Origin: an uncultured Hyphomicrobiales bacterium
GTDB lineage: Bacteria > Pseudomonadota > Alphaproteobacteria > Rhizobiales > Hyphomicrobiaceae
Direction of reading: 5' to 3'
DNA: 34,840 nucleotides
Assembly (NCBI GenBank): GCA_902826715.1
Contig: CADEFX010000012.1
Span: forward strand, 1 to 34,840
The position numbers were made by a program, and so were the translations under genes. Below the pieces are notes generated by a model. It searched no databases. It saw only the letters and a program-made list of their open reading frames with translations, and was not told the DNA's origin. This document shows, piece after piece, positions 24,865 through 34,368 of this stretch (positions are counted from its first letter, which is position 1; each line of letters starts with the position of its first letter).

Positions 24865-26919
24865 CTAGCCCTCGACGATGATGTTCAGGTAGGGATCGAC
24901 GGCTGCCGTCTGCCCCGGAAGAACCACGGTGGTGGCGTCCATCTGCTCGACGATGGCAGGGCCGGTAATGCGATGTCCCGGGCCCAGCTTCTCGCGATCG
25001 TAAACCGGGCAGGAAACGAAGCTGGACGCCTCGGCCAGCCACACATCGCGCCTGGCCATGAGGGCCGTGTCCAGCGGCGTGGTCGCAGCAGGCTGGTCCC
25101 GAAGCTCGGCCTGACGCACCGCGCCCGTCGCTTCGATGCGGAAGGTCACCGCCTGCATCGGCTCCTCCGGCGCGATGTAGCCATACATTTGCTTGTGGGC
25201 CTGCTCGAAGCTTTCGCGCAGAGCACCGAGCAGAGCTTCGCCATCCAGGTTGTCCGGCATCGCGATTGGCAGCTCGTAGTTCTGTCCGGCGTAGCGCATG
25301 TCGATGGTGCGGCTCATGCGACGGTCATTGGCGGGGATGTTTTCTGCCGTGAACCAAGCTTGCGCCCGCCTGTCGAGATCTGAGAACACCTCCGCCATGG
25401 CGCCAAGCGTATCCGGTGTCACCGGCATCAGGCGTGTCTGCGCATAGTTGGTCTGCAGGTCCGTCATCAGCAGGCCGAGGGCGCACAGGATGCCTGGATT
25501 GCGCGGCACCAGCACGCGTGGAATTTCCAGCTCGCGTGCGAGGCGTGCGGAGTGCAGTGGACCAGCGCCGCCGAACGCGACGAGCGTGTACTCGCGCGGG
25601 TCGTGCCCGCGCTGCACCGACACGAGGCGGATCGCCTTTGCCATGTTGGCCGTGACGACGCTGAGGATGCCCTGTGCCGTCGCCATGACGTCGAGCCCCA
25701 GGCGCCCGGCCAGCTCGCTGACGGCGGCCTTTGCTTTCGCCTGATCGATCTTCATGCGGCCGCCGAGCAGATACTGCGGATTGAGCGTCTGCAGCACCAC
25801 GTTGGCGTCGGTGACCGTAGGCTCGATGTTGCCGAGGCCATAGCACACGGGTCCAGGCGCACCGCCAGCGCTGCGGGGGCCGACCTTCAGGTGCCCACCA
25901 GCATCGAGATAGGCGATGGAGCCGCCGCCGGCACCCACCGTATGGATGTCGAGCATCGGCGTCTTCAGCGGATAGCCGTGCACCTCCATCTCGCCGGCGA
26001 GTTTCGGCCGGCCGTTCTCGATGAGGGCAACGTCCGTTGACGTGCCGCCCATGTCGAAGGTGATAATGTTGGGAAAGCCCGACAGTGCGCCGACCTTCAT
26101 GGCGCCAACGACACCTGTGGCAGGACCCGACAGCACCGTCCGCACGGCGTGATCGCGGGCGGTGGCAAACGACATGACGCCGCCGTTCGATTGCGTGATG
26201 TGTCTTGGCCCTTTGAGGCCGGCTTCGTCGAGGCGCGGCCCGAGGCGCTCGATGTATTTGGCCATAACGGGGCCGAGGTAGGCATTGACGACAGCGGTGG
26301 ACAGCCGCTCGAACTCGCGGAACTCCGGCGCGACCTCATGCGAGCAGGTGACGAAGGCGTCGGGAAATTCCTCGGCCAGAATCTCGCGCACGCGCGCCTC
26401 GTGACGCGCATCGATGTACGAGTAGAGGAACGTCACGGCGACTGATTGCACGCCTGCTGCCTTCAAGTCGCGCGCGGCCGCCCGCACCGCGTCTTCATCG
26501 AGCGGCTTCTCGACACGGCCGTCGTGGCGCAGGCGCTCAGGCACTTCCTTCCTGAGATCGCGGGTGACGAGGACGGCCGGCTTATCGCATTGCAGATCGT
26601 AAAGATGGGGCCGCCGCTGCCGGCCGATCTCCAGCAGATCACGAAAGCCGTCCGTCGTAATGAGGCCGGTCTTAACACCGCGATGCTGGATCAGCGCGTT
26701 GGTCGCGACGGTCGTGCCGTGGCCAAAGGAGATCACATCCTTGGCGGTCGCGCCGGCGGACTTCTCCAAGCCTTCCGTCACGCCGCCGGCGATGGCGCGG
26801 GACGGATCATCCGGCGTGCTTGGAACCTTCCACACGCGAATGGCTCCGCCGTCGGCCTCAACGAGGCAGATGTCAGTGAATGTGCCGCCTGAATCGACGC
26901 CGACGCGCCACCCTGTCAT
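24865..26919 (-). CDS. hyuA: Hydantoinase A/oxoprolinase family protein
   Basis: HyuA is the ATP-binding subunit of the hydantoinase/oxoprolinase/acetone-carboxylase group, with an acetate-kinase-like fold. The 684-residue product shows the phosphate motif DSGGTFTD at residues 9-16, the HGTTVATNAL segment near 68, the second phosphate motif FDMGGTSTDVAL near 290, VGAGGGSIA, and FGGAGPLH. An AGGAG lies ten bases before the ATG. It is the first gene of the minus-strand module and a consensus-like -35 element lies upstream. Oxoproline, hydantoins or another lactam/ketone are all possible substrates. Confidence 0.94.
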   Translation of the reverse strand: MTGWRVGVDSGGTFTDICLVEADGGAIRVWKVPSTPDDPSRAIAGGVTEGLEKSAGATAKDVISFGHGTTVATNALIQHRGVKTGLITTDGFRDLLEIGRQRRPHLYDLQCDKPAVLVTRDLRKEVPERLRHDGRVEKPLDEDAVRAAARDLKAAGVQSVAVTFLYSYIDARHEARVREILAEEFPDAFVTCSHEVAPEFREFERLSTAVVNAYLGPVMAKYIERLGPRLDEAGLKGPRHITQSNGGVMSFATARDHAVRTVLSGPATGVVGAMKVGALSGFPNIITFDMGGTSTDVALIENGRPKLAGEMEVHGYPLKTPMLDIHTVGAGGGSIAYLDAGGHLKVGPRSAGGAPGPVCYGLGNIEPTVTDANVVLQTLNPQYLLGGRMKIDQAKAKAAVSELAGRLGLDVMATAQGILSVVTANMAKAIRLVSVQRGHDPREYTLVAFGGAGPLHSARLARELEIPRVLVPRNPGILCALGLLMTDLQTNYAQTRLMPVTPDTLGAMAEVFSDLDRRAQAWFTAENIPANDRRMSRTIDMRYAGQNYELPIAMPDNLDGEALLGALRESFEQAHKQMYGYIAPEEPMQAVTFRIEATGAVRQAELRDQPAATTPLDTALMARRDVWLAEASSFVSCPVYDREKLGPGHRITGPAIVEQMDATTVVLPGQTAAVDPYLNIIVEG

Positions 26920-26983
26920 GCCGTCATGTCTCCTAGCGCGTCCGTGCGGTTATGTATCACTTTCGATCGAGGTTAGCGCAGGT

Positions 26984-27012
26984 ATCCAAAGGCCCCGGCT
27001 GTGGCCTGTCAA
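26984..27012 (-). promoter_or_regulatory. hyuA: Possible promoter of the hyuAB-opp operon
   Basis: Reading the minus strand, a perfect TTGACA (27012-27007) is followed after 17 bases by TTGGAT (26989-26984), a weak -10 match. The hyuA start is 65 bases further on. It is the best candidate in the 234-base gap between the UPF0114 gene and hyuA, which holds no recognisable gene. Confidence 0.4.
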
Positions 27013-27153
27013 CACAGTATGGGGCGCCGGTGCGTGAGGAACGCCCTTGGCGACCGATTCCATGGTTTGACGATGGCAATTGCGCCCAATCCGCGGGCAC
27101 ACTGCCGTAAAGGGCGCAGGATGCCGCCTACAGTTCGGGCGGGCGTCGTGGGA

Positions 27154-27741
27154 TCAATCGTGCAGTGCGGCCGGGTGCGCCTGGGCCTTGTGGCTCACGC
27201 CCGTGTTGCCGCCGGATAGCCGGTCCACATAGGCGATGCCGACCGCCGACAGGATGAACGTCACGTGGATGATCGTCTGCCACATGATGCCTGCCTCGGT
27301 GTAGGTCGATGTCGGTTTGCCGAGATTGCCCGCTTCGATGAAGGTCCGCAGGAGGTGGATCGACGAGATGCCGATGATGGCCATGGCGAGCTTGATCTTC
27401 AGCACGCTGGCGTTGACGTGATCGAGCCATTCGGGCTGGTCGGGGTGCCCCTGCAGGCGCAGTCTTGACACGAACGTCTCGTAGCCGCCGACGATAACCA
27501 TCACGAGCAGGTTGGAGATCATGACGACGTCGATGAGGCCCAGGACGATCAGCATGATCTGCTGCTCCGAGACCGTCGCGGCGTGCGAGATCAGGTGCCA
27601 AAGCTCTTTCAGGAACAGGACAACATAAACGCCCTGGGCGACAATGAGGCCCAAATAGAGAGGAAGCTGCAACCATCGGGAGCCGAAAATGAGCTGAGGG
27701 ATGGGACGCAGCGGGCGCAGGGACGTGGATGTCTGTGTCAT
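27154..27741 (-). CDS. UPF0114 (YqhA/TIGR00645 family) membrane protein
   Basis: The family is an inner-membrane protein of uncertain function. The 195-residue product has four hydrophobic segments (about residues 25-45, 63-86, 114-132 and 150-170). It has the family features [16 protein letters not shown] near the N-terminus, [25 protein letters not shown] in the middle and [17 protein letters not shown] before the last segments (longer segments given in part). The ribosome-binding site is weak, and a TTGAAG/TATCTG pair just upstream could give a nearly leaderless mRNA. It stands alone between two operons, and context gives no functional hint. Confidence 0.88.
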
Positions 27742-27882
27742 GGTCCGGTCAGATACGGAGGGGGAGCCCGCACTTCAAGGCGTGGAGCCGCGACTTCTAG
27801 GGAAAGGACCCGAATGAGTCCAGCGGCGGGTGCTGCATGCGGCGCCACGTCAGCCTCGTATTGATACGGACCAATCTTCCCA

Positions 27883-27902
27883 GGCGTTCCCAGTAGGAAA
27901 CG
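27883..27902 (-). terminator. Hairpin downstream of the ThDP enzyme gene
   Basis: Bases 27883-27890 and 27895-27902 form an 8-bp stem (one G-U pair) with a four-base loop, 18 bases after the stop of the minus-strand gene. There is no T-run on the minus strand, so it may mark an RNA 3' end or processing site rather than a classical terminator. Confidence 0.35.
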
Positions 27903-27920
27903 CTGACATGGAGGCTGCCT

Positions 27921-29552
27921 TTAGCGATAGGCAGGGGCGGCGATGCTCTCGGTCATGACGTTGATGCACGCCGGCTTGCCGCTGGCGATGGCGCGTTCGA
28001 TGGCGCCGGGCAGGTTCTCGGTCTTGTCGACCATCTCCCCGTAGCCTCCAAGCGCAGTCACGACCTGATCATAGCGCGTGGGCAGCAGCGCGCAGCCGTG
28101 CATGCGATCGCGGCCATAGTCGCGGAGCTGGATCTGGCTCTCGGCGTTCCACGACGAGTCCGTGCCTACGATCGCCACGAACGGCAGGTTGTGCCGCACG
28201 GCCGTGTCGAACTCCGACATATGGAAGCCGAACGTGCCGTCGCCCAGCACGGCGATGACGGGTGCCTTCTTCTCGTAGCTGCGCGCGGCAATAGCAAACG
28301 GCAGTGCGGAGCCAATGGCGCCGGCGATGCCGTTGATGAGGCGCCGCTCGGCCTTGAGCATCGCCTGGCCCCATTGCGAGAACTCGCCGCCATCACAAAT
28401 GAGCACCGTGTCGGGATCGCGGTCCGCGATGGGACGGAGCGCGCGGAACACCTCCGCCGGATGCAGTTTGCCGGGCGTCTGCGATTTGAGCTCGGCCCAC
28501 GCTTTCGGCCGCCCATCGATGGCGGTATGCACCTCGGTGTGCCAGCCGCGGTCGCGCGGCGTTCGCTTTGCCGACCGCTGGATCAGCGCATCGATGGCCG
28601 GCACCGCATCGGCAACACACGCGAGTGCGATCGAGCCACCCTTCTCCTTCACCGCGCGCTCGACGAGCAGGCCCTCCGGATCGACGACGATGAGTTTGCA
28701 GGAGGGATCGAGTGCCGTTTCCGCGCCCCAGTGCAACGTAAAATCGAGCGGCTTGCCCAGCAGCACGATAAGATCCGCGCGCTTCAGAATGCTGGCGTAC
28801 GTGCCGAGCGTCGCATCGCGCAATCCGCGCACACTCTCCATGATGACGACTGGGGCGCCGGTCGCCGCCTCCAGCTTGGCGACGAGGGCGCGGCCACCGG
28901 TGTGGGCCAGTTGCGGGCCGGCCAGCAGCAATGGCCGCTTTGCCGCAGCAACAGCATCGAGGATGGCATCGGCCGCCGCATCGGCGAGCGCGACCACGCG
29001 CGGCGCGTATTTCTTGTCGGGCCACGCGATGGCGTTGGCCTCGACGTTTTCATCGAGGAGGTCGGACGGCAAGCTGACATGCACCGGTCCGGGGCGCCCG
29101 GTCGTCGCGATGCGGACGGCCTCCGCCATGTCGCGTCCGAGGTTGGCGGCGGACGTGGACGTCCAAGACGCCTTGGTCACGGGCGCGGCCATGTCGGCCT
29201 GGCGGATTTCCTGGAAGCCGCCGCGTCCGAGCTCGCTCGTCATGGCGTGGCCGGAGAGCAGGACCATGGGCGACTCCGCCGCGAGCGCCGTATACAGGGC
29301 CCCCACCGCATTGGCGTGCCCCGGCCCGCCCGTCACCATGGCGATGCCGGCCTCGCCGGTGAGCCGGCCCCAGGCGTCGGCCATGTGCACGGTGGCCGCC
29401 TCATGGCGGACGTGGATGAGCTCGAGCTTGGTCTCCAACGCCGCATCGAAGATCGACATGATGTGGTTGCCGGACAGCGTAAAGACCTTGGTCGTTCCCA
29501 GTTGCTCCAGAGAGCGCGCAACAATGTCGGCCCCTCTCAGGGTTTTGCTCAT
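27921..29552 (-). CDS. Thiamine-diphosphate-dependent enzyme (acetolactate synthase-like)
   Basis: The 543-residue product has the three-domain layout of the acetolactate synthase/oxalyl-CoA decarboxylase/benzaldehyde lyase group. It has an N-terminal pyrimidine-binding domain with the catalytic Glu in VRHEAATVHMADAW (E51), a central domain, and a C-terminal diphosphate-binding domain with GDGTFGFHMSEFDTAV. The second half of the cofactor motif reads GTDSSWNAES instead of the usual NN pair; relatives with a ND-x-x-WNAE pattern exist, so cofactor binding is plausible. No FAD-specific or CoA-specific motif was recognised. AAGGAA precedes the ATG. It is monocistronic; reaction unknown. Confidence 0.88.
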   Translation of the reverse strand: MSKTLRGADIVARSLEQLGTTKVFTLSGNHIMSIFDAALETKLELIHVRHEAATVHMADAWGRLTGEAGIAMVTGGPGHANAVGALYTALAAESPMVLLSGHAMTSELGRGGFQEIRQADMAAPVTKASWTSTSAANLGRDMAEAVRIATTGRPGPVHVSLPSDLLDENVEANAIAWPDKKYAPRVVALADAAADAILDAVAAAKRPLLLAGPQLAHTGGRALVAKLEAATGAPVVIMESVRGLRDATLGTYASILKRADLIVLLGKPLDFTLHWGAETALDPSCKLIVVDPEGLLVERAVKEKGGSIALACVADAVPAIDALIQRSAKRTPRDRGWHTEVHTAIDGRPKAWAELKSQTPGKLHPAEVFRALRPIADRDPDTVLICDGGEFSQWGQAMLKAERRLINGIAGAIGSALPFAIAARSYEKKAPVIAVLGDGTFGFHMSEFDTAVRHNLPFVAIVGTDSSWNAESQIQLRDYGRDRMHGCALLPTRYDQVVTALGGYGEMVDKTENLPGAIERAIASGKPACINVMTESIAAPAYR

Positions 29553-30124
29553 AGTGCGTTTCCTTCCAGGGGTGGCGCCAATGCGGCCGCGCTGCAGACA
29601 AGGCGAGCATCTTGCGAGTATCGTGACGCCCTGCTGACGCTGTCAAGGTATGGGCCATCCGCGTGAATCAGGGTCGGCGTGCGTTCTAGGCCACGGTGCG
29701 GGTATCGGCAGAGTGCCGGGGCGATAGACCAATCATGAACGCTTTGAAGAACACTGCACCGGCGATACGGCGACCTTCCAGAAATTTCGCCGACGATGGA
29801 GGCGGCGGCATAGATGGACGCACACCGGGCGAGTGATGGCCGACAAGCGGCTGCAACCCGAGCTTGCTCAGGACGGGAGCGTCGCCTGAGGCCGTCAAAG
29901 GGCAGGAGGCCGTTGTGCGGAACAGCCGCCTCAGGGAGTTTCACAACCATGGGCACGGCGACTGTGTATGTCGCGGGACCGCATGTGCGGAGACAGTGGC
30001 ATCGCATGGCCGGGTCATCTAAAATCTTTGAAGCCGGTGGCTGAAAGTGGCACAGGCTCCTGAGCCAAGTGTTGCTCTATCATGACGACGTACCGGTACA
30101 TCAAGCCGTTGAAAGGCTGCTGTC
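29553..30124. other. 572-base intergenic region without a recognisable gene
   Basis: The region separates the divergent ThDP enzyme gene (minus) and the HtrA-like gene (plus). It contains the ThDP promoter candidate at 29617-29646 and a perfect 10-base palindrome GTACCGGTAC at 30090-30099, close to the plus-strand gene. Open frames on both strands here (for example minus-strand 29549-30007 and 29686-29898) show no family features and no good ribosome-binding sites. It could hold a decayed gene or a regulatory RNA, but nothing supports either directly. Confidence 0.5.
29617..29646 (-). promoter_or_regulatory. Probable sigma70-type promoter of the ThDP enzyme gene
   Basis: On the minus strand, a perfect TTGACA (29646-29641) and GATACT (29622-29617, four of six consensus bases) are separated by 18 bases. 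The predicted start of transcription is about 55-60 bases before the ATG, leaving room for the AAGGAA ribosome site. Confidence 0.5.
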
Positions 30125-31066
30125 ATGCATCCCAATCCGGAAGACTACGCCTACGACCTCGAGGAGACTCTCGGTGCCGTCGTGGGTGTCAGAACGCTTA
30201 TTCCGCCTGACGCCTTCACGGCCGATACGCTCGGCACGGAGCGGCTGGGCAATGGTGTGCTGATCCGCAAGAACGGCGTCGTGCTGACGATCGGTTATCT
30301 CGTGACGGAGGCGGAGACCGTGTGGCTAAGCTTCGGCGATCGCGTCGTGCCGGGGCACGTGCTGGGCTTCGATCAAGTGACGGGCTTCGGGCTCGTGCAA
30401 GCGCTCGCGCGCCTGGATGTGTCTTGCTTGCCTTTGGGCGACTCCGACACGGTAAAGGTCGGTGAGGATGTGGTTGTTGCCGGTGGCGGGGGAAGGCAGG
30501 CAGCCATTGCCGCGCGCATCGTCGCCAAGCAGGAGTTTGCCGGTTACTGGGAGTATCTGCTCGACGAGGCTCTTTTTACCGCGCCGGGTCACCCGCATTG
30601 GGGCGGGACGGCGCTGATCGGGCCTGCTGGCGACCTCTTGGGCATCGGATCGCTGCAGGTGCAGCATCAGGTGCGCGAGTCGGCACAACCGGCAAACCTC
30701 AACATGATCGTGCCCATCAATCTGTTAAAACCTATCCTTGAGGACATCATGACTCAGGGCAGGGCCAAGCGTCCGCCGCGTCCATGGCTTGGGTTCTATG
30801 CCAGCGAGATCGGCAACCGCATCGTCATAACCGGCCTTGCGAGCCGCGGCCCGGCGCAGGAGGCTGACCTGAGGCCGGGCGATATCGTGATGTCGATCAA
30901 GGGGAGCAAGGTGACGACACTGTCGAGCTTGTTCCGGACGATCTGGTCGGTGGGGCCGGCTGGCGCCGACATCCCCATGAAGATCTTTCGCGATGGCAGC
31001 ACCTTCGAACTGGGTGTAACGTCAGCCGACCGCAACAGCTTTTTGAAAGGTCCGGTGCTGCATTGA
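30125..31066 (+). CDS. HtrA/DegP-like (S1C) protein with PDZ domain, catalytic triad apparently lost
   Basis: Residues about 15-205 follow the HtrA trypsin fold: GNGVLIRKNGVVLT, VLGFDQVT and GDLLGIGSL match the GSGVVI, DPxTD and GEVIGINT regions of DegP. Residues 220-300 form a PDZ domain (PWLGFYASEI, LRPGDIVMSIKG). At the catalytic positions the alignment gives Tyr58 for His (LTIGYLV for LTNNHVV), Gly87 for Asp (TGFG for TDIA) and Trp159 for Ser (HWGG for NSGG). The 313-residue product starts MHPNPEDYAYDLEE, without a signal peptide, so it is probably cytoplasmic. AAAGG precedes the ATG. It may act as a binding or scaffold protein. Confidence 0.85.
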   Translation: MHPNPEDYAYDLEETLGAVVGVRTLIPPDAFTADTLGTERLGNGVLIRKNGVVLTIGYLVTEAETVWLSFGDRVVPGHVLGFDQVTGFGLVQALARLDVSCLPLGDSDTVKVGEDVVVAGGGGRQAAIAARIVAKQEFAGYWEYLLDEALFTAPGHPHWGGTALIGPAGDLLGIGSLQVQHQVRESAQPANLNMIVPINLLKPILEDIMTQGRAKRPPRPWLGFYASEIGNRIVITGLASRGPAQEADLRPGDIVMSIKGSKVTTLSSLFRTIWSVGPAGADIPMKIFRDGSTFELGVTSADRNSFLKGPVLH

Positions 31067-31142
31067 AACAGGCCTTGATGGAGTTTGGCTGCTGGCGAAG
31101 CGCGCTCGGCACGCGCGGGTGGCCAACGGCGGGGAGGAAACG

Positions 31143-31931
31143 ATGAGCACCGTGTCTGTTCTCAAGGTGAAGCCGGTCCGCCAATCCGTTTCGGCGACCG
31201 AGTGGGAGGCCCGCGTTAATCTGGCGGCCTGCTATCGCCTCTGCGATCACTACGACATGTCGGACATGATCTACACGCACATCAGCGCGCGCGTGCCAGA
31301 CGAGAGCAATCGCTTCCTGCTCAATCCGCACGGGATGCTGTTCGATGAGATGACGGCATCGTGCTTCCTCAAGGTCGATCTTGACGGCAACGTCGTCTAC
31401 AAGCCGGAGCTTGAGCAGGGATATGGTTTGCACCCGGCCGGCTTTGTCATTCACAGCGCCATCTATAAGGCCCGCGCCGATGTGATGGCGGTGATGCACA
31501 CCCATACCATCCCCGGCATGGCGGTATCCTCCCTGAAGTGTGGGCTTCTGCCATTGACGCAGACGTCACATCGCTTCTATTCGCGTGTTGCCTATCATGA
31601 TTTCAACGGCCCTGAGCGCGATCTGGGTGAGCGTGAGAAGCTGGCGCAGCACCTCGGCAGCTACGACGTAATGATCCTGCGTAATCATGGCCTGCTCACC
31701 GTGGGCCCTAGCGTGCAGGAAACGTTCAACCGCATGTATGGCCTGGAGCGCTCGTGCCGGGCGCAACTCGCGGCCATGGCCTGCAACACCGAGCTCAACG
31801 TTCTCACCGACGAGATCGTCGACAAGTCCGTGGCCATGTACCAACCGGGTGTCGTGCGCCCATACGGTCTGCTGGAATGGCACGGCCTGCTGCGCATGCT
31901 CGATCGCAAAGACGCGTCCTATCGCGAATAG
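31143..31931 (+). CDS. Class II aldolase/adducin family protein
   Basis: Members are zinc-dependent aldolases, epimerases, or related enzymes of sugar-phosphate and sugar-acid catabolism. The 262-residue product shows the metal site H119 and H121 (VMHTHTIPGMAVSS) and H182 (LRNHGLLTVG). The region that carries the catalytic Glu in fuculose aldolase reads GYGLHPAGFVIHSAIY, as in the adducin-like branch, so aldol cleavage is not assured. An in-frame GTG at 31119 exists, but GGAGG six bases before the ATG at 31143 fixes the start. First gene of a three-gene plus-strand operon. Confidence 0.9.
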   Translation: MSTVSVLKVKPVRQSVSATEWEARVNLAACYRLCDHYDMSDMIYTHISARVPDESNRFLLNPHGMLFDEMTASCFLKVDLDGNVVYKPELEQGYGLHPAGFVIHSAIYKARADVMAVMHTHTIPGMAVSSLKCGLLPLTQTSHRFYSRVAYHDFNGPERDLGEREKLAQHLGSYDVMILRNHGLLTVGPSVQETFNRMYGLERSCRAQLAAMACNTELNVLTDEIVDKSVAMYQPGVVRPYGLLEWHGLLRMLDRKDASYRE

Positions 31932-31982
31932 GACGGCACGATTTTCGCCCTTCGACTTAACCCGAGCAGAGAGACATCCGAC

Positions 31983-32312
31983 ATGGCAAAAACGACGCCT
32001 CCCAACCCCGCCCGCGAAACGGTCCGCAAGGTTGCGCCGAAGCTCATCGATCTCACCGAGAAGGTGCTGTTCGGCGACGTGTGGGAGCGCTCCGAGTTGT
32101 CAAAGCGCGACCGCAGCCTGATCACGGTGGCGACGCTGGTGGCGCTCAATCGGACGGAGCAGCTTACCGGGCATCTTGGCCGGGCGCTTGATAACGGCGT
32201 GACCAAAGAGGAGATCGGCGAGCTGATCACGCATCTGGGCTTTTATGCCGGCTGGCCGTGCTCCATGTCGGCAGCGCTGGTCGCCACTGACGTGTTCGCG
32301 AAGCGGGACTAG
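31983..32312 (+). CDS. Carboxymuconolactone decarboxylase family protein
   Basis: The 109-residue product is a single CMD-type helical domain. It shows SKRDRSLITVATLVALNRTEQL followed by GHLGRALDNGVTKEEIGELITHLGFYAGWP (given as continuous family segments only in part here), the typical pattern of this fold. The CxxC redox pair of AhpD is absent; a lone Cys follows the GWP turn, so peroxidase-like redox chemistry is unlikely. It lies 51 bases after the aldolase-like gene and 12 before the dehydrogenase, suggesting a role in the same pathway. True gamma-carboxymuconolactone decarboxylase activity is possible but not supported by any protocatechuate genes nearby. Confidence 0.9.
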   Translation: MAKTTPPNPARETVRKVAPKLIDLTEKVLFGDVWERSELSKRDRSLITVATLVALNRTEQLTGHLGRALDNGVTKEEIGELITHLGFYAGWPCSMSAALVATDVFAKRD

Positions 32313-32324
32313 GCGGAGACCCCG

Positions 32325-33266
32325 ATGCAACTCGGATTCATCGGCCTGGGCATGATGGGCGCCAGCATGGCGGCCAATCTGCAGAAGGCTGGACACAAGC
32401 TCGTCGTAAACGACGTCCGTCGTGAGGCGGCGGACATTCATATTGCTAACAGCGCCAAATGGGCGGCGAGCCCGGCGGAGCTGGCCACACAGTGCGATGT
32501 GATCTTCCTGTCGTTGCCCGGACCGCCGGAGGTGGAAGCCGTGGCGTTGGGGGAGAGCGGACTTCTGGGCGGATTGAAACGCGGAGCGGCCGTGTTCGAT
32601 CTGTCCACCAACTCGCCGACGCTGGTGCGCAAGATTCACGCCGTCTACGCTGAGAAGGGCGTGCAGATGATGGATGCACCGGTCAGTGGCGGTCCGCATG
32701 GGGCGCGGTCGGGGCGGATGGCCATCTGGGTCGGCGGCGACAAGGCGACCTTCGACAAGTACAAGCCACTGCTCGATGCTATGGGCGATCAGGCCCGTTA
32801 CATCGGTGAGATCGGTGCCGGGGCGGTGGCCAAGCTCGTGCACAATTGCGCAGGCTATTGCATCCAGACGGCGTTGTCGGAGGTCTTCACCATGGGTGTC
32901 AAAGCGGGCGTTCCGCCGCTGGCGCTGTGGGAGGCGGTGCGCGGCGGAGCCCAGGGACGGCGCCGGACATTCGACGGGCTGATCGACCAGTTCCTTGTCA
33001 ATAAGTACGAGCCGGCGGCGTTCGCGCTCAAGCTCGCGCATAAGGACATGACGCTGGCGACGCAGCTCGGGCGCGAGATCGGCGTACCCATGCGGGTCGC
33101 CAATACCGCCATGGCGGAGATGACGGAAGCGCTCAATCGCGGCTGGGACAAGCAGGACTCGCGCTCCCCCATGAAGCTGCAGATCGAGCGCGCCGGCGTG
33201 AAGATCGAGGTTGATCGGCAAAAGATCGCCGAGGTTTTCGACCGCGATCCGCCGTTCAAGGGTTGA
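32325..33266 (+). CDS. NAD(P)-dependent beta-hydroxyacid dehydrogenase (3-hydroxyisobutyrate dehydrogenase family)
   Basis: Such enzymes oxidise beta-hydroxy acids such as 3-hydroxyisobutyrate, tartronate or L-threonate. The 313-residue product has the nucleotide-binding GFIGLGMMGASMAANL at the N-terminus, the substrate motif DAPVSGG at 117-123, and the catalytic K170 with N174 in GAVAKLVHN. Residues from about 175 form the helical C-terminal domain. GGAG is six bases before the ATG. It ends the plus-strand operon. Together with a class II aldolase-like gene it resembles clusters for four-carbon sugar acids, though this is only suggestive. Confidence 0.92.
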   Translation: MQLGFIGLGMMGASMAANLQKAGHKLVVNDVRREAADIHIANSAKWAASPAELATQCDVIFLSLPGPPEVEAVALGESGLLGGLKRGAAVFDLSTNSPTLVRKIHAVYAEKGVQMMDAPVSGGPHGARSGRMAIWVGGDKATFDKYKPLLDAMGDQARYIGEIGAGAVAKLVHNCAGYCIQTALSEVFTMGVKAGVPPLALWEAVRGGAQGRRRTFDGLIDQFLVNKYEPAAFALKLAHKDMTLATQLGREIGVPMRVANTAMAEMTEALNRGWDKQDSRSPMKLQIERAGVKIEVDRQKIAEVFDRDPPFKG

Positions 33267-33290
33267 TGGAACACGCGTCTATGTTGAACG

Positions 33291-33314
33291 AATGGGCCGC
33301 ATGAGCGGCCCATT
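33291..33314. terminator. Bidirectional intrinsic terminator between convergent genes
   Basis: AATGGGCCGC (33291-33300) and GCGGCCCATT (33305-33314) form a perfect 10-bp stem with an ATGA loop, 24 bases after the dehydrogenase stop and three bases before the stop of the convergent Gfo/Idh gene. Short A/T-rich ends on both sides suit termination in both directions, though the T-runs are short. Confidence 0.7.
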
Positions 33315-33317
33315 TGC

Positions 33318-34343
33318 TTATCCGATCACGCGCACCGGCTTGCCCGTCGCAGATGTTGCAATGAGCGCATCGATCAGGCGATGCACCTTCAAGGCTTCAG
33401 TACCGGTGACGCGCGGGGCGCGGCGCGTCGCGATGGCGTCAAGGAAATCAATCCAGACGCTGCGATGGTAGTCGTGCGGGAAGGCCATGGGATCGGCTCC
33501 GGTGCCGCCGGCCGAACCGTCGGCGACGTGCTCCTCTCGCGTGCCGTCCTGCCATTGCACGACAAGCGATGTGCCGGCGAGAGACGCCGTGCCCTTCTCG
33601 CCGACGAGATCGATGCGTTCGGCGAAGCCCGGATAGGCCGTCGTCGTCGCGTCGATGACGCCGATGGCACCATTGCCATAGCGCACGGCGGCCGCTGCCG
33701 TGTCCTCCGTCTCCATGTGATGCACGGGCGAGGTGATCGCGTAGCCGCTCACTTCCGCGATGGGGCCGGCCAGCGACATCATCAGGTCGAGCGTGTGAAT
33801 GCCCTGCGTGATCAGCACGCCGCCGCCGTCACGCGCACGCGCGCCGCGTCCGGGTTCGTCATAGTAGCTCTGCGGGCGCCACAGGCGGATCGACGTGGAG
33901 CAGTTCACGAGTGCGCCGAGGCGGCCGTCATCGATGATCGTCTTCAGTCGCTCGGCGGCAGGGCGGAAGCGATGCTGCAGCACCACGCCCAGCGTAACGC
34001 TGGCCTGCGCGGCGCAATCAACCAGTACCTGCGCCCGGCTCGTGGTGATTTCCAGCGGCTTTTCGAGCAGGATGTGCTTGCCCGCGGCCGCCGCTTTCTG
34101 CACCAGATCGAGGTGCGTATTGGGGGGCGACAAGATCGCGACGGCATTGATTGCGCGATCGGCGAGCAGAGCATCGAGGCCATCGGCGAATGCGAAAGGA
34201 TAGGCTTTGCCGAAGGCCTCGCGCCGCTGCGTACTGGGGCTCCAGGCCACGACATCGACTCGATCCCTGAGATCGAGCAGGCTCTTGGCATGGGGAGCGA
34301 CCGCCATGCCAAGGCCGATGAGGGCCACACGCTGCTTTGCCAT
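33318..34343 (-). CDS. Gfo/Idh/MocA family oxidoreductase
   Basis: The family holds NAD(P)-dependent sugar, inositol and glucose-fructose oxidoreductases. The 341-residue product has an N-terminal Rossmann domain (VALIGLGMAVAPH, residues 7-18), the EKP motif at 94-96 whose Lys is catalytic in relatives, and the GGVLITQGIHTLDL segment with H183. The C-terminal half is the usual open beta-sheet domain. The ATG at 34343 is preferred to a TTG two codons upstream. It follows the aldo/keto reductase gene by 25 bases on the same strand, likely one transcript. Confidence 0.92.
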   Translation of the reverse strand: MAKQRVALIGLGMAVAPHAKSLLDLRDRVDVVAWSPSTQRREAFGKAYPFAFADGLDALLADRAINAVAILSPPNTHLDLVQKAAAAGKHILLEKPLEITTSRAQVLVDCAAQASVTLGVVLQHRFRPAAERLKTIIDDGRLGALVNCSTSIRLWRPQSYYDEPGRGARARDGGGVLITQGIHTLDLMMSLAGPIAEVSGYAITSPVHHMETEDTAAAAVRYGNGAIGVIDATTTAYPGFAERIDLVGEKGTASLAGTSLVVQWQDGTREEHVADGSAGGTGADPMAFPHDYHRSVWIDFLDAIATRRAPRVTGTEALKVHRLIDALIATSATGKPVRVIG

Positions 34344-34368
34344 CTGCAAGAGCCCCAGCCCGCACCGC

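Follow-up and report, generated by a model that had tools for sequence, protein, structure and literature searches.

An alphaproteobacterial family of HtrA-like proteins with a replaced catalytic triad includes a signal-less, likely cytosolic branch

Introduction

HtrA-fold pseudoproteases are hardly known in bacteria. A 2008 survey counted 2 inactive proteins among 247 trypsin-like homologues (PMC2605481), and the only studied bacterial example that we found in the open-access literature is MamO, a magnetosome pseudoprotease that is derived from HtrA, has a degenerate triad and is retained for a non-proteolytic role (PMC4794232). Here we ask what has become of an HtrA-like protein that appears to have neither a catalytic triad nor an export signal. 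It is encoded in a 34,840-nt stretch of DNA from an uncultured Hyphomicrobiales bacterium (contig CADEFX010000012.1 of assembly GCA_902826715.1), hereafter referred to as the window. A preliminary description of the window had read it as a cytoplasmic pseudoprotease that may bind protein C-termini. The question is whether the protein is a protease whose active site was misread, an enzyme of another kind, a decaying gene product, or a protein kept for binding. We found no description of a corresponding pseudoprotease family in the open-access literature.

Results

The coding sequence occupies positions 30125-31066 of the forward strand, on which all features given below also lie, and encodes 313 aa that we aligned over the full length in a set of 81 ortholog sequences. 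Its start position matches that of orthologs beginning with M-Q-P-K-P-E-D-Y. The frame is intact, an in-frame TGA (30110-30112) lies upstream of the ATG at 30125 with 4 sense codons between them, and direct reading places a putative Shine-Dalgarno-like AAAGG at 30112-30116, 8 nt before the ATG. Some relatives start approximately 12 codons further upstream and carry a segment of the form [D/E]-W-x-[V/I]-P, which is absent from the window copy and its Hyphomicrobium relatives.

Read directly, the N-terminus (MHPNPEDYAYDLEETLG...) contains no signal peptide, and a crude hydropathy scan found no clear one in window-type relatives, in agreement with the preliminary description. We ruled out an upstream start with a hidden signal peptide on the basis of the in-frame stop codon and a clade without a clear signal.

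Two domains are recognizable above Pfam cutoffs: a trypsin-like domain (Trypsin_2, PF13365; residues 42-174, positions 30248-30646; 44.8 bits against a cutoff of 27.6, E 2.7e-11) and a PDZ domain (PDZ_2, PF13180; residues 222-298, positions 30788-31018; 35.7 bits against a cutoff of 27, E 1.1e-8). The sequence P-W-L-G of the carboxylate loop at residues 220-223 is nearly fixed among 171 family members (Pro220 and Gly223 in 171, Trp221 in 170, Leu222 in 161). An AlphaFold2 model of the window protein, built with 40 family rows as input, has a pLDDT of 93.9 and a pTM of 0.90. It supports the trypsin-like assignment, and its best PDB matches in Foldseek are DegQ and DegS, with E from 1.8e-22 to about 1e-18 and TM-scores of 0.5-0.6 when both domains are taken together. 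An HtrA fold is thus confidently predicted, in which a trypsin-like domain is followed by a PDZ domain as in DegP, DegQ and DegS, with the closest predicted likeness to DegS and DegQ.

The catalytic residues were located by alignment to solved DegP, DegQ and DegS and to the window genome's own DegP-like proteins. The preliminary description had equated the catalytic His and Asp with Tyr58 and Gly87, and this alignment agrees: Tyr58 (codon at 30296-30298) replaces His57 in chymotrypsin numbering and Gly87 (30383-30385) replaces Asp102. Its placement of the catalytic Ser at Trp159 was off by one. The DegP sequence N-x-G-N-S-G-G aligns with H-P-H-W-G-G in the rebuilt L1 loop (residues 156-161, positions 30590-30607), so that Ser195 corresponds to Gly160, the oxyanion-hole Gly193 corresponds to His158, and Trp159 replaces the Asn that precedes the serine.

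These replacements extend to the family. Among the 171 members, Tyr58 is found in 170, Gly87 in 171, Gly161 in 171 and Trp159 in 165, and residue 158 is mostly Asn, His or Ser and non-glycine in nearly all. Residue 160 is Gly in 142 members, Ser in 19 and Ala in 6, with Thr also occurring; on the tree, Ser and non-Ser states interchange at least 10 times, so the residue is not kept for catalysis. We also looked for an intact triad elsewhere in the protein, which would contradict the preliminary description. No invariant His was found among the 171 members, and hence no alternative His-based triad is held.

A few members depart from this pattern. In L173, the sole compared member with His at the Tyr58 position, the serine site nevertheless reads Pro-Gly, and in two family members from another class of the phylum (L189 and L190) Trp159 is replaced by His (D-H-A-G and D-H-S-G) and the motif reads W-E-Y-H.

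Judged from these positions, protease activity has almost certainly been lost. Public plasmid records name the window-type protein "S1C family serine protease" or "signal protein PDZ", and the corresponding reading, an ordinary active S1C protease as annotated in RefSeq, is highly improbable. Substitutions affect every triad position as well as the oxyanion glycine, the family offers no constant His, and the window protein lies far below every NCBIfam cutoff for the Do, DegS and DegP families (best 75.7 bits versus 416.2). No dedicated NCBIfam family was found, the 40 members tested matching HtrA-type models alone. Members are annotated as active proteases, and at the least a family entry of their own is needed in annotation pipelines.

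A contig scan returned at least 572 confirmed relatives, and the 80 of them that we kept are 56-68% identical over essentially the whole length. In whole-genome searches, matches to the protein family occur in 16 of the 60 genomes from the taxonomic family of the window and in 73 of the 289 from its class. Nearly all matches in a phylum-wide sample fall in this same class, the exceptions being a pair of exported-type proteins that come from one family in a different class of the phylum. The window protein is one of a widespread family and not an oddity of its genome. Near-fixation of Tyr58 and Gly87 rules out chance or local error, and the retention of the same replacements in relatives across Alphaproteobacteria marks the protein as a long-established, non-cutting relative of the HtrA proteases.

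Purifying selection on the family is evident. The median dN/dS is 0.157, with a range of 0.032-0.321 (Nei-Gojobori, 503 pairs at 80-99.5% identity and dS 0.1-1.2); these pairs are non-independent, and even the nearest relatives of the window copy are too distant to allow a direct estimate for it. Synonymous codons alternate at the replaced sites, with TAT (117) and TAC (66) at Tyr58 and all four GGN codons at Gly87. Low dN/dS combined with this alternation shows that the replaced residues are conserved and not drifting. The loss of catalytic residues alone might suggest a decaying pseudogene. Frames are intact throughout, the family has an invariant motif of its own, and the end branch of the window copy is of ordinary length (0.3 against a median of 0.25), which together with the dN/dS values make decay exceedingly improbable, as the preliminary description had also judged from the intact frame and the motifs retained outside the active site.

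The family-specific motif is K-Q-E-F-A-G-Y-W-E-Y (residues 135-144, positions 30527-30556), which aligns with the region of DegP residues 184-195. Its core, F-x-G-x-W-E-Y (138-144), occupies by alignment the former L3 sensor-loop region, named and numbered as in DegP. Trp142, Glu143 and Tyr144 are each present in 171 of 171 members and, with R40, E62, P154 and L177, make up the family-specific invariants.

Conservation of this kind could also mean that the protein is still an enzyme, its active site rebuilt and its chemistry passing through Tyr58, Glu62, Glu143, His156 and Ser176. Strict conservation does cluster in the former active-site loops, where Glu62 and Glu143 are invariant, Ser176 is found in 170 of the 171 members and His156 in 158. 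However, approximately 10 of the 23 proteins in the exported set lack His156 but retain the remaining motif, so that no His is invariant; Ser160 comes and goes, and nearly all members have lost the oxyanion glycine. We regard a rebuilt enzyme as improbable.

The nearest described parallel is MamO. Both have a degenerate triad, a non-glycine residue at 193 (His or Asn158 in the window family) and a Trp in loop L1; in MamO the latter two obstruct both the oxyanion hole and the path of the substrate (PMC4794232). In the strain studied, MamO is a magnetosome-associated protein that retains the His and Asp of the triad and carries a TauE-type transporter domain as well as a di-His metal site (PMC4794232). 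These features separate it from the window family, and a MamO-like metal-binding role for the window protein is very improbable. The metal ligand His148 of MamO adjoins the catalytic Asp149, whereas the equivalent residue 86 is Thr or Ser in 81 of 81 orthologs; the L1 Trp stands at 194 (Trp159) rather than 192; and the window protein ends after the PDZ domain, with no TauE domain. A family profile gives MamO 5-10 bits versus 65-88 bits for ordinary DegP/HtrA proteins, which places MamO further in sequence from the family than ordinary DegP. MamO stands apart in its origin, its domains and its metal site, and we take the likeness to be convergent.

The window genome encodes a second family member on contig C52 (L002:1369-2406), 41% identical to the window protein. 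The two share the Tyr and Gly substitutions and the W-E-Y and P-W-L-G motifs, but the C52 paralogue has a typical Sec-type signal peptide, Trp-Ser at 159-160 and the C-terminus N-S-T-F. Most C52-type relatives likewise have hydrophobic, signal-like N-termini in the crude hydropathy scan. In a tree of 118 rows, whose resolution is poor among the deep exported branches, a branch with an SH-aLRT of 98 sets the signal-less rows apart from the others, and the export label switches a single time. Given this single change, the most likely course is that the signal peptide was lost in one of the two branches, whose proteins thereby came to reside in the cytosol; loss is the simplest direction because the active HtrA used as the outgroup is exported. 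A cytosolic location of the window protein is very likely.

The two groups also differ at their C-termini. In the signal-less branch, the free tail is P-x-[L/V/M]-H (P-V-L-H in the window protein, residues 310-313, positions 31052-31063), with His last in 138 of 159 members and Pro at -4 in 147 of 159, and the exported group ends mostly in x-[S/T]-[Y/F].

On contig C143 (L006:1381-2328), the same genome encodes a further trypsin-like and PDZ protein without an obvious signal peptide, which, unlike the window protein, keeps His, Asp and GNSGG and belongs to a separate, rarer family. HtrA trimers form through the protease domain, as is established for DegP and DegS, and a pseudoprotease could in principle enter hetero-trimers with active HtrA proteases as a regulatory subunit that tunes them. 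The co-occurrence of the window protein with the intact-triad C143 protein would fit such an arrangement. Signal-less active HtrA proteins of the C143 type, however, occur in 9 of 289 class genomes (E < 1e-70) versus 73 with the pseudoprotease family, and only five genomes have both. Given this rarity, most carriers of the pseudoprotease lack such a cytosolic partner, and we rejected a cytosolic active HtrA as the general partner; a role in hetero-trimers as a whole is unlikely.

Discussion

The cytoplasmic pseudoprotease reading of the preliminary description is strongly supported by family-wide replacement of the catalytic elements, purifying selection, a single change in export and a predicted HtrA fold. 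As to function, we consider it reasonably probable that the window protein is a cytosolic HtrA-fold pseudoprotease that acts as an adaptor binding peptides or C-termini; for an adaptor or scaffold role as such, our confidence is about as high, at slightly better than an even chance.

In this scheme, an exported HtrA ancestor would have lost the His-Asp-Ser machinery and the oxyanion hole while keeping the trypsin-like barrel and the PDZ domain, and would have acquired an aromatic motif, now fixed, in place of the former active-site and L3 sensor loops. One branch would then have dropped its signal peptide and entered the cytosol. There it most likely works by binding, with a protein C-terminus held by the PDZ domain and the same partner segment or a second one held by what was the active-site cleft, now rebuilt and putatively lined by Tyr58, Trp142 and Trp159. 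The protein could thereby work as an adaptor, scaffold or regulator, with its own conserved P-x-L-H tail possibly taking part in recognition.

A broader version of this proposal is speculative, and we think it doubtful. It would make the family an ancient alphaproteobacterial set of cytosolic pseudo-HtrA receptors for C-termini or internal peptides, in which the P-x-L-H tail, either of the same protein or of a neighbouring subunit, serves as a ligand and gates the PDZ domain. The separate exported sister group would do likewise in the periplasm, using a tail of its own.

All of the catalytic machinery has been lost in this family, whose members occur in 73 of the 289 alphaproteobacterial genomes sampled. 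If the window protein is a cytosolic C-terminus-binding adaptor, bacteria would have in it a module for protein recognition that derives from a periplasmic protease.

We also considered the gene neighbourhood. In the window, the gene is flanked on one side by a divergent gene for a TPP-dependent enzyme; on the other side, 50-80 nt downstream, follows a gene for a class II aldolase in the same orientation. The surroundings (24865-34349) look mostly catabolic, comprising hydantoinase A, a UPF0114 protein, the TPP-dependent enzyme, the class II aldolase, a carboxymuconolactone decarboxylase family protein, a 3-hydroxyisobutyrate dehydrogenase-like protein and a GFO/IDH/MocA oxidoreductase. A conserved operon partner was looked for, and gene neighbours differ between genera, so that the neighbourhood points to no particular partner.

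Two further candidate links were rejected. An EcfG-type motif indicative of a stress-sigma promoter is present in 1 of 80 upstream regions against 0.65 expected, and a phage or defence connection is represented by one unannotated PHROG match, with no PADLOC matches.

In Bradyrhizobium and close relatives only, a predicted carboxylesterase (Abhydrolase_2) gene lies within approximately 70 nt after the pseudoprotease gene, at 16 loci; no real homologue of it was found in the window genome. At L063:6961-8040 and the 15 further, mostly Bradyrhizobium, loci, this carboxylesterase has an N-terminal region outside the Pfam match.
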